NCBI RefSeq assembly: GCF_021497885.1
Contig: NZ_CP046523.1
Location: forward strand, 1,717,501-1,781,500
Direction: 5' to 3'
From: Streptococcus oralis
Lineage (GTDB): Bacteria > Bacillota > Bacilli > Lactobacillales > Streptococcaceae
DNA length: 64,000 bases
Below, in pieces: positions 61,180 through 64,000 of this stretch; position 1 is the stretch's first letter; each line of letters begins with the position of its first letter. The notes beneath the pieces were generated by a model. The model did no database searches. It was given only the letters and a program-made list of their open reading frames with translations, and had not been told where the DNA came from. The translations under genes were made by a program, and so were the position numbers.

Positions 61180-63840
61180 TTATAGCCAACTTTTAAATTT
61201 TTTGATATAGATTCGTTTCACTACTGTAACACTGATCATATAGAAAACGATGATCAAAAGCAAAAAGAGGAAATAAATTGGTTCCAAAGGGGTTAAATGA
61301 AGCAGGCTAGCAATTGAAGAGTAGGGAAGGAAGGTCACAAAACTAGCTGCTAGCAAGGTTGTACCAAGAACAAACCATGATGGACGACTTTGTAAGAAAG
61401 GAAGTTTTGCTGAACGAAGCATATGGATAACCATGGTTTGGGACCACATGGATTCAATGAACCAACCTGTCTGGAACAAAATGATAAAGGCCGTTGCAGA
61501 CTCTGCTCCGTGAACATAGGCATGACCTGTCGCCATTGGGACAATGACAAAATAGAGCAAGATAAAGGTCAAAATATCAAAGGCAGAAGAAATCGGACCC
61601 ATCCAAATCATAAAGCGAGTAATGGACTTGGCTTCCCACTTATGAGGATGTTTCAAAAAGTCTTCATCCACATTATCAAATGGCAAGGCAATGCAAGAAA
61701 GGTCGTAGACGAGGTTTAACACAATCAAGTGAATCGGAGCCATAGGAAGGAAAGGTAAAAAGATACCAGACACTAAAAGTGAAAAAATGTTCCCGAAATT
61801 GGAGCTAACTGTCATCTTGATATATTTGGTCATGTTAGCATAGACTTTGCGTCCTTCAACCAGCCCTTTTTCAAGCACCATCAAATCCTTATCTAGCAAA
61901 ATGACATCAGCCGTTTCTTTGGCAATATCTACTGCTGTATCAACAGAAATCCCCACATCTGCTACTTTCATAGAAGGGGCATCATTGATCCCATCTCCCA
62001 TATAGCCGACACAATGTCCATTCGATTTGATTTGTAAAATGATTCGTGCTTTTTGATCAGGAGAGAGTTTGGCAAAGACAGTCACCTTCTCAACTGCTTG
62101 GGCCAACTCTTCGTCCGTCATGGCTTCGATATCAGAACCCAACAAGATTTGATCAACGTCTAAACCAACTTTTTCGCAAACTGCTTGGGTTACCTTCTCA
62201 TTGTCTCCCGTCAAGATCTTTGTTTGAACACCGTGTTCTAACAAAGCTTGGATAGCAGGTGCTGCTGATGGTTTTGGTGGATCTAGAAAGGCAAGATATC
62301 CTGTTAGAATCATCTCTTTTTCATCTTCAACTGAGTAAGCGAAACCTTCTTTTAGGCCTGTTTTATAAGCGACTCCCAAGACTCGCAATCCCTGTTGATT
62401 GAGTTGGTCCACTTCTTTTAAGATTTCCACTCGGATATCATCCGTCAGAGGACTAATCTGACCTTGATATTCCACATGGGTTGAAATCGCAAGCATTTCC
62501 TCTAGGGCGCCCTTGGTTACCAAACTAACAACTTCGTTCTCATCCTTGACGATGACACTCATCCGTCTACGCTCAAAGTCAAAGGGCAATTCATCTATTT
62601 TTTGGAATCTAGTATCCAAATTTTGTAGAATAGCGTGTTCTTTAGCTTCTTTTTCAGTTCTACTGATAATGGCACGGTCCATCAAGTTTTTCAATCCCGT
62701 TTGAAAATAGGAATTGAGATAGGCACGTCTCAACACAGACAAATCCAAATCTCCATGTATATCCAAAGGATATTCAAGGACAATTTCGTCTTGGGTAAGG
62801 GTTCCCGTTTTATCCGTGCATAGAATATCAATAGCACCTAGATCTTGTATGGCATTGAGTTTTTTGATGACGACTTTTTCCTTGGCCATGATAATGGAGC
62901 CTTTTGCTAGACTGGCCGTGATGATCATAGGAAGCATCTCAGGTGTGAGCCCGACACCCACACTCAAGGCAAATACACCAGCTTCTAACCAATCTCCATC
63001 TGTCAAGCCATTGGAGAGAAACACGATGGGAACCATGACTAACATCAAACGGATTAAGAGCCAAGAGATGCTGTTCATCTCCCGCTCAAAAGAGGTCGGT
63101 TCGTCATAGGTATTGAGGGTCTGCTCGATTTCTCCCATCATGGTGTCATCACCGACTGCTAGAATCAAAGTCTTAGCACTTCCTGATATCACATTGGTTC
63201 CCATAAAGGCGAGCGCTTCTGCTTCTAGTAGACTATCAAAGTTTAACTGACTCATTTTTGACAAGGCTAGTTTCTCAACCGAGTCACTTTCACCTGTCAA
63301 ACCAGACTGTTGGACAAAGAAATCACGTGATTCAATTAAAATGAGGTCTGCTGGAATCATGTCCCCAGCACTTAATTTGACTATATCTCCAACGACCAAA
63401 TCTTCAATTGCGACCTCTAAACTCTGGTCTTCGCGAATAACTGTGGCTGTGTTCACAATCATTTTTGATAGATTGGTCGCAGCCTTGTCACTCCGCAGTT
63501 CTTGGACAAAGCGTATGCCACCAGAGATTAGAACGAGAACAACGATGATGATAGAAGTCGTCGGATCTTCTTGTCCAGGCTTCGCCAACCAGACATTGGT
63601 CACCATGGAAATCATAGCGATGACAAGAAGGATGATTGTAAATGGATTGATAATAGATTCGTAAATCTTTTTGAGGATACTGTCTTCTTGACCCTTGGTG
63701 ATGGTGTTTTCGCCATATAGGTCACGATTTTTTCCCACCTGCTCCTCAGTCAAGCCTGTTAGACTTGTCTTATAAAAAGATAGAGTTTCGTTTAAAGGTG
63801 TGTGAATAGCTGTTGCTAATCTTTCTTTTGTAGTTTTCAT
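61180..63840 (-). CDS. mgtA: Magnesium-translocating P-type ATPase (MgtA)
   Basis: 886 aa P3B ATPase that imports Mg2+ using ATP. Landmarks: cytosolic N-terminus, actuator LTGES at 181-185, the P3B helix GVGLTPEMLPMIIT (295-308) with its conserved proline, the phosphorylation site D343 in CTDKTGTLTQ, GDGINDAPSMK, and a C-terminal six-helix domain. It starts 54 nt after a short upstream ORF whose RNA can pair with the region before the mgtA start. The ribosome site AGGAGAAACC and the ATG lie inside a predicted hairpin. I do not recall this gene in typical S. pneumoniae. Confidence 0.94.
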   Translation of the reverse strand: MKTTKERLATAIHTPLNETLSFYKTSLTGLTEEQVGKNRDLYGENTITKGQEDSILKKIYESIINPFTIILLVIAMISMVTNVWLAKPGQEDPTTSIIIVVLVLISGGIRFVQELRSDKAATNLSKMIVNTATVIREDQSLEVAIEDLVVGDIVKLSAGDMIPADLILIESRDFFVQQSGLTGESDSVEKLALSKMSQLNFDSLLEAEALAFMGTNVISGSAKTLILAVGDDTMMGEIEQTLNTYDEPTSFEREMNSISWLLIRLMLVMVPIVFLSNGLTDGDWLEAGVFALSVGVGLTPEMLPMIITASLAKGSIIMAKEKVVIKKLNAIQDLGAIDILCTDKTGTLTQDEIVLEYPLDIHGDLDLSVLRRAYLNSYFQTGLKNLMDRAIISRTEKEAKEHAILQNLDTRFQKIDELPFDFERRRMSVIVKDENEVVSLVTKGALEEMLAISTHVEYQGQISPLTDDIRVEILKEVDQLNQQGLRVLGVAYKTGLKEGFAYSVEDEKEMILTGYLAFLDPPKPSAAPAIQALLEHGVQTKILTGDNEKVTQAVCEKVGLDVDQILLGSDIEAMTDEELAQAVEKVTVFAKLSPDQKARIILQIKSNGHCVGYMGDGINDAPSMKVADVGISVDTAVDIAKETADVILLDKDLMVLEKGLVEGRKVYANMTKYIKMTVSSNFGNIFSLLVSGIFLPFLPMAPIHLIVLNLVYDLSCIALPFDNVDEDFLKHPHKWEAKSITRFMIWMGPISSAFDILTFILLYFVIVPMATGHAYVHGAESATAFIILFQTGWFIESMWSQTMVIHMLRSAKLPFLQSRPSWFVLGTTLLAASFVTFLPYSSIASLLHLTPLEPIYFLFLLLIIVFYMISVTVVKRIYIKKFKSWL

Positions 63841-63966
63841 TGGTTTCTCCTATCTGGTATGAATGATGTGTTTCATACACAGAGACCAATCACTTTATAA
63901 GGGCAGAACGACACAAATCAGCGATTGGCTGTGTATGTGCGGTTCTGGATGATCGTCAATTTGCAT
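63838..63966 (-). promoter_or_regulatory. mgtA leader with two alternative RNA structures
   Basis: OFF form: ATTGGT (63890-63885) pairs with ACCAAT (63844-63839, including the AT of the start codon) and CTC (63884-63882) with GAG (63849-63847). Inside lies GTATGAA-N8-TTCATAC. ON form: the upstream-ORF segment CATACACAGCCAATC (63937-63923) pairs over 15 bp, with one 3-nt bulge, with GATTGG-TCT-CTGTGTATG (63891-63874). That uses up both left arms of the OFF form. The two forms exclude each other. Confidence 0.65.
63895..63966 (-). CDS. mgtA leader peptide (23 aa, MgtL-like upstream ORF)
   Basis: Starts MQIDDHPEPH and ends SLICVVLPL; 24 codons with stop. AAAGGAG lies 7 nt before the ATG, one of the best ribosome sites in the window, so it is very likely translated. 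The early Asp-Asp-His-Pro-Glu-Pro run resembles the acidic/proline stretch of enterobacterial MgtL, which makes ribosomes fall off when Mg2+ is low. The distal codons overlap the 15-bp pairing segment of the leader. No similarity known to me; regulatory role is inference. Confidence 0.65.
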   Translation of the reverse strand: MQIDDHPEPHIHSQSLICVVLPL

Positions 63967-64000
63967 CGTTTGTCTCCTTTCCTTGTTCTAAAACAGTAGA

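Follow-up and report, generated by a model that had tools for sequence, protein, structure and literature searches.

A candidate translational attenuator behind an M-box riboswitch in the mgtA leader of Streptococcus oralis

The mgtA leader of Streptococcus oralis, located on the minus strand at the end of the analysed window (64,000 nucleotides, positions 1717501–1781500 of contig NZ_CP046523.1), carries a short open reading frame (ORF) with an acidic start and a set of competing RNA pairings. According to folding models and comparative analysis, this leader probably forms a translational attenuator of mgtA that would read ribosome progress on the acidic leader peptide and act in series with an M-box riboswitch; we put the probability of this reading at about 70%. 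The mgtA start is predicted to be closed with a ribosome past approximately codon 9, and usually with no ribosome, and to be open with a ribosome at approximately codons 3–8. An initial annotation, made from the sequence alone, had suggested an attenuator built from a leader peptide and two exclusive pairings. The core of this proposal, a leader with acidic and proline residues that proved to be conserved and two mutually exclusive pairings predicted to switch the mgtA start by ribosome position, was supported by computation and recurs in divergent lineages; three corrections were required, including an M-box that precedes the ORF and a widely recurring third pairing that closes the leader's own start, both of which had been missed.

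The predicted 23-codon ORF beginning with MQIDDHPEP and its good ribosome-binding site were confirmed (Table 1). The acidic residues of the leader (Asp-Asp at codons 4–5 and Glu at codon 8) are conserved. A 17-base pattern search found DDHPEP in 130 of 284 streptococcal genomes, in a single copy each, and all 130 copies sit 79–459 nt upstream of mgtA (distances subtracted by hand from coordinates, with the mgtA start extrapolated from partial matches in G069 and G245); the reversed control pattern gave 10 matches in total. An ATPase protein match at E 1e-100 or better, a count that includes some other P-type ATPases, was present in 162 of the 284 genomes. The 134 streptococcal and related loci, drawn from overlapping collections, yielded 132 upstream regions; a looser leader pattern matched 125 of these, corresponding to 70 unique sequences. 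The seven regions lacking it comprised one masked sequence (L009), five divergent leaders (L075, L076, L079, L081 and L082) and one region that was probably cut too short (L109). In the 70 unique leaders, the third positions of the DDHPEP codons vary and the residues are nearly fixed, with five Tyr in place of His and one Thr in place of Pro. Synonymous variation is low in codons 13–17 of the streptococcal leaders, consistent with RNA constraint.

A functional small protein encoded by the leader was considered and set aside, given that the peptide after the acidic start differs between genera and that codons 13–17 fit an RNA constraint. No NCBIfam leader-peptide family matched this very short query at E values up to 10. 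As a separate observation, the window leader carries an extra C near the mgtA ribosome-binding site (minus strand 63860–63850, CATACCAG), a 1-base insertion absent from the other aligned streptococcal leaders retaining that stretch.

Five segments of the leader, in the order a < c < d < e < f, take part in three pairings: a:d would hide the leader start, c:e would free the mgtA start and e:f would hide it, with a:d crossing c:e. The previously noted 15-bp complementarity between 63937–63923 and 63891–63874 extends to 63921 and 63893, giving 17 Watson-Crick or G-U pairs (9 + 8) around a 3-nt bulge. The competing pairing at the mgtA start was also recovered: AUUGGU (63890–63885) is complementary to ACCAAU (63844–63839). 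The stretch 63838–63966 folds at −33.9 kcal/mol (z −3.27), a value equalled by 1 of 200 dinucleotide shuffles.

Covariation was assessed in an alignment of 43 streptococcal leaders with 500 column shuffles, where cells count sequences rather than evolutionary events. For c:e, the 10-pair version was paired in 92% of cells compared to 12–46% when slid, and none of the 500 shuffles equalled its covariation score; two cells carried changes on both sides. The 17-pair version was 91% paired, with 15 cells changed on both sides versus 8 at most when slid. For a:d, 97% of cells were paired versus 29–51% when slid, and the score was again reached by 0 of 500 shuffles. The a:d relation also recurs with unrelated sequences: GGGUGAUCAU/AUGAUCACCC in L149, GUGUUCAGC/GCUGAACAC in L153, GGAAAAUGCCA/UGGCAUUUUCC in L151 and AACAAAUGGAUGA/UUAUCUAUUUGUU in L174. 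Against 500 shuffles each, the a:d duplex ranked at ≤1% in 42 and at ≤5% in 51 of 70 leaders, a set whose non-streptococcal members, as in the all-codon scan and the test of other genera below, were hand-picked with the acidic start in view. One leader labelled S. vestibularis (L069) ends after 18 codons; it has lost the a:d signal (131/500) and kept the response to ribosome position described below (2/300).

The effect of ribosome position was modelled by folding only the RNA ahead of the ribosome (edge placed at +16 relative to the P-site codon) and calculating the energy cost of opening positions −13 to +3 of mgtA. For the window leader, the cost was 5.9 kcal/mol with the ribosome at codons 1–2, fell to 3.4 at codon 3, 2.9 at codon 4 and about 2 at codons 5–8, rose to about 6 from codon 9 and dropped again near the stop. 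The mgtA start was therefore predicted to be open at codons 3–8 and closed from codon 9, an effect equalled by 3 of 300 and 2 of 1000 shuffles. The flip amplitude was defined as the value for codons 11–17 minus that for codons 4–6. Of 26 leaders, 16 of which belong to related DDHPEP-type streptococci, 21 had an amplitude that no more than 1% of shuffles matched. Across nine footprint and region settings, the late value exceeded the early one in 25–26 of the 26 leaders, and the value without a ribosome exceeded the early one in 24–25. Since the mgtA start is predicted to be harder to open without a ribosome than with an early one, abolishing translation of the leader would be expected to reduce mgtA expression rather than raise it.

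When all codons were scanned post hoc, 32 of 40 leaders showed a flip of at least 2 kcal/mol, at codons that differed between leaders. The position of the acidic codons correlated with the flip codon in these 32 non-independent leaders (Spearman 0.48, p = 0.006), and in 18 chosen leaders, one per genus, the coefficient was 0.33–0.46 (p = 0.03–0.10, four definitions). This is suggestive only of a tendency of the flip codon to follow the acidic codons. A leader preceding MgtC (L254) also showed the flip. Seven unique leaders (ten loci: L025, L028, L035, L036, L038, L045 and L124, and L125, L128 and L132) carry a recurring element of ~105–150 nt inserted exactly between the e and f arms with both arms kept, which we take to resemble a RUP-type miniature element. 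The opening energy of these seven still rises between codons 7 and 9, and that of an eighth, rearranged leader without e/f arms (L029, L121) rises from 4.4 to 7.2; these figures carry no shuffle control.

Table 1. Features of the mgtA leader region within the window.
Feature	Position	Strand	Basis
mgtA, P-type Mg2+ ATPase, 886 aa	61180..63840	minus	Exceeds the curated TIGR01524 and PRK15122 cut-offs
Segment f, ribosome-binding site and start codon of mgtA, predicted to be sequestered by e	63838..63860	minus	Folding
Segment e, 3' of the leader stop codon, partner of c or f	63874..63893	minus	Pairing tests, folding
Leader ORF, 23 codons and stop TAA, MQIDDHPEPHIHSQSLICVVLPL	63895..63966	minus	Starts MQIDDHPEP; conserved in streptococci
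Segment d, leader codons 16–20, pairs with a	63907..63919	minus	Pairing tests
Segment c, leader codons 10–16, pairs with e (putative anti-sequester)	63921..63937	minus	Pairing tests
Codons 4–9, DDHPEP, proposed ribosome-destabilising stretch	63940..63957	minus	Residues kept while synonymous sites vary; acidic starts also seen across the order
Segment a, region of leader initiation, 13-bp pairing with d	63958..63970	minus	Pairing tests
Shine-Dalgarno sequence AAAGGAG of the leader ORF	63974..63980	minus	Sequence; alignment of 43 streptococcal leaders

Acidic leaders were then sought across Lactobacillales in 57 mgtA upstream regions from 29 genera (60 were fetched, and three streptococcal ones with 45% identical ATPases were excluded). 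In this blind selection, the ATG ORF of 12–50 codons with the best Shine-Dalgarno match was picked and called acidic if it had at least two Asp or Glu residues in codons 2–8. An ORF was obtained in 41 of the 57 regions and none in 16. Acidic starts were found in 33 of the 41 ORFs, representing 19 of the 29 genera: 9/9 in Streptococcus and 24/32 outside it. Shuffling yielded 876 ORFs from 5700 regions, 93 of them acidic (Fisher's test, p = 2.6e-23 under an assumption of independent loci that does not hold). Examples include MPEPDSK in Granulicatella, MPNADSEP in Abiotrophia, and MDDSSQ and MDDSSS in further genera; the feature shared by leaders of Mg2+ transporter genes is the acidic start, and the remaining peptide differs. 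In genomic controls, acidic starts made up 34/176 ORFs at a Shine-Dalgarno score of 5 or more and 23/55 at 6 or more, and an earlier small control without known leaders gave 3/12. Because the genomic control is contaminated by M-box loci holding such leaders, the shuffles were relied upon for the excess of acidic starts.

Outside the class, an acidic ORF with a ribosome-binding site was present in three of nine mgtA upstream regions (L228, L230 and L235). In these loci, from other classes of the phylum, the acidic ORF follows an M-box and precedes mgtA; the a:d signal was found in L230 (0/500 shuffles) and L235 (16/500) and not in L228 (171/500). In L246 and L250, an M-box is followed by an acidic leader ORF and then by a GNAT acetyltransferase gene. 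A different type of short ORF, hydrophobic and possibly membrane-spanning, lies with its ribosome-binding site directly before mgtA in L162, L169, L172, L175 and L179, and is in frame with mgtA in L172 and L175. These ORFs are reminiscent of MgtS/MgtR-type small proteins.

The M-box (RF00380) begins 37 bases past the window end (37–188) and scored 88.1 bits against a gathering threshold of 44 (E = 1.6e-19). It is the only one found in this genome. The window edge cuts off the M-box, a promoter-like TTGACT-17-TATACT site before it and a terminator-like hairpin after it; an Rfam search of the window end alone returned nothing relevant because the M-box lies beyond. The hairpin, AAUCCUGCCAU-UUU-AUGGCAGGAUU with a T-run, was read by eye as a terminator and was not listed by the terminator scan. 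M-boxes were detected in 15 of 20 upstream regions scanned (not in L146, L147, L156, L162 and L194), in 17 of 20 loci of a second scan (13/13 streptococcal and 4/7 from other classes) and in 78 of 108 genomes across the order. In eight sanguinis/cristatus-type loci (L049, L050, L056, L062, L064, L066, L067 and L071), the M-box lies ~790 nt before the leader; several of these were missed by a simple motif text search and placed further upstream by Rfam. Of these eight, two loci were inspected between M-box and leader, revealing a GST-like gene in L056 and a similar ORF in L049. As the leader adjoins mgtA in these loci, it evidently remains with mgtA rather than with the M-box.

Among 31 further M-boxes, none of the eight preceding LytR or FtsW genes has an acidic ATG leader. 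For the other 23, such a leader follows in 12 by a loose by-eye classification (Fisher's test, p = 0.012) and in seven by the strict count of two acidic residues in codons 2–8, which is non-significant (p = 0.15). The M-boxes before LytR-CpsA-Psr and FtsW/RodA genes (L237, L238, L240, L241, L244, L245, L247 and L248) link Mg2+ sensing with cell-wall genes. In another locus (L160), two tandem M-boxes (172–344 and 507–685) precede mgtA, and no acidic leader was picked.

The gene 3' of the leader scored 1080 bits with the TIGR01524 profile (cut-off 611) and was also above the PRK15122 cut-off. No Rho above the family cut-off was found in the genome, the best profile matches reaching 39.8 and 21.1 bits against a cut-off of 509.

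Taken as a mechanism, the attenuator would operate as follows. At low Mg2+, ribosomes would stall or fall off at Asp-Asp-His-Pro-Glu-Pro; with an early-held or lost ribosome, a:d would be blocked, c:e would form and MgtA would be made. With ample Mg2+, ribosomes would complete the ORF and melt c:e, after which e:f and then a:d would close both starts. The upstream M-box would gate transcription by Mg2+, and because it precedes the leader ORF, the leader would be a second layer, placing two Mg2+ sensors in series. We infer the Mg2+ dependence and the pausing or drop-off at the acidic codons from the intrinsic ribosome destabilisation that PMC9718836 and PMC11282234 describe.

A broader interpretation, to which we give slightly under even odds, is that ribosome integrity serves as a general and probably old Mg2+ sensor in Bacillota, and that a class of leaders with an acidic start and self-closing a:d pairing adds a second, translational check behind M-boxes. 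Such a class would be found upstream of mgtA, and in at least one case upstream of mgtC, throughout Lactobacillales and into other classes, with the acidic start and topology conserved rather than the sequence. If so, Mg2+ sensing by destabilised ribosomes would be no enterobacterial speciality and could proceed in Gram-positives free of Rho and in tandem with a classical riboswitch. These leaders would also offer a large natural set of varied peptides and RNAs for studying how acidic nascent chains destabilise ribosomes.

Several observations weigh against the attenuator. RNAfold is unable to represent the a:d/c:e pseudoknot, and in the window a ribosome at codons 1–2 gives a closed mgtA start. 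The window values without a ribosome and with an early one lie close together (3.2 vs 2.3 kcal/mol), and in one setting their order reverses (3.2 vs 3.3). The flip was absent in L142 (73/300) and L145 (95/300), non-significant in L047 and L058 (17/300 each), weak in L046 (9/300) and lacking in the leaders preceding MgtE (L258, L261 and L264). With preset codon windows, eight of 18 leaders from other genera were at 3/60 shuffles or fewer and ten were not. The outermost of the ten c:e pairs formed in just 16 of 43 rows, and the 14 a:d cells changed on both sides, compared to 14 and 19 at slides of +1 and +2, are indecisive alone. At the 5% level, the a:d signal was missing in 19 of the 70 leaders (L069, L072, L080, L138, L145, L158, L165, L171, L176, L180, L185, L186, L188, L193, L253, L254, L255, L258 and L266). 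Related DDHPEP-type streptococci account for 16 leaders in this set as they do in the set of 26. Finally, some lineages have 9–25 nt between the leader stop and mgtA, a spacing at which ribosomes completing the leader might open the start or couple to it.

This last point leads to the reverse scheme, in which ribosomes finishing the leader would melt e:f and re-initiate, turning mgtA on. Near-stop ribosome positions do reopen the mgtA start in many leaders, and the short distances suit such coupling; however, the stop is 52–54 nt away in oralis/mitis-type leaders, and the scheme gives neither the acidic codons nor the conserved c:e pairing a role, so we consider it very improbable. Alternatively, the M-box alone might provide Mg2+ control of mgtA, with the leader ORF conserved yet playing a passive or minor part, such as adjusting basal translation through coupling. 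The strength and frequency of the M-box are compatible with this, as are L160, L184 and L187, in which an M-box is present and no acidic leader could be picked. Yet the leader adjoins mgtA even where the M-box is ~790 nt upstream, and neither the covariation nor the ribosome-position effect would be explained, which makes a passive leader unlikely.

The leader might also sense some other early ribosome arrest, caused by a drug, low charged tRNA, low ATP, polyamine or pH stress, and not Mg2+ itself. The RNA logic requires only a ribosome held or lost at codons 3–8, and the flip is blind to the cause; moreover, the Salmonella mgtM and mgtP leaders respond to ATP and charged tRNA-Pro according to PMC8092293. 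On the other hand, it is the acidic start, not the rest of the peptide, that recurs before Mg2+ transporter genes, and the M-boxes of FtsW and LytR genes lack such leaders, although this contrast is a weak point because it depends on the loose count. We judge a different arrest signal improbable, if the least so of these alternatives, and prefer the Mg2+-responsive attenuator.

Among known systems, the M-box (ykoK, RF00380) is present upstream in the same leader; the ORF and its switch lie after the aptamer and are not part of it. An M-box followed by a conserved small ORF, rv1805A, is described for Mycobacterium tuberculosis in PMC12810186, but in that case the ORF is under M-box control and transcription is terminated by Rho; the main text of that paper uses neither the term 'MgtL' nor the term 'leader peptide'. 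MgtL, the model proposed in the initial annotation, shares an mgtA leader peptide with an acidic and proline-containing start (EPDP in MgtL) and repression upon completion of the ORF, and to this extent the comparison stands. It differs in that MgtL acts via a Rho-dependent terminator, according to PMC11282234, whereas no Rho above cut-off was found here and the switch is predicted to act on the mgtA ribosome-binding site. The initial annotation knew of no such streptococcal system, and the open-licence PMC matches listed, covering titles and abstract starts, likewise contained no Gram-positive acidic mgtA leader, streptococcal or other.

As MgtL needs Rho, the logic of the translational Salmonella mgtQ/mgtB system fits better, and on our best reading it is the closest known counterpart. 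In the experiments of PMC8092293, the acidic codons Asp2 and Glu5 of mgtQ free the mgtB ribosome-binding site through stem 2:3 versus stems 1:2 and 3:4, and a start-codon mutant gives low output. Both systems have a short ORF with a strong Shine-Dalgarno sequence and early acidic residues before an Mg2+-transporter gene, and alternative stem-loops of which one set hides the transporter start and the other frees it, here by computation. As in mgtQ/mgtB, control would be exerted at translation, with low output when the leader is not translated, a result shown for mgtQ and predicted here. In contrast, mgtQ is shorter (8 codons versus 23) and occupies the mgtC–mgtB interval, while the streptococcal ORF sits in a 5' leader downstream of an M-box, although it too is intergenic in the sanguinis group. 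The alternative stems of mgtQ share a strand, whereas a:d crosses c:e here. On the matches listed, the principle is already known from Salmonella, and its predicted Gram-positive, Rho-free version in tandem with an M-box appears new. The streptococcal leader would thus work like mgtQ, a likeness of arrangement rather than of shown relationship.

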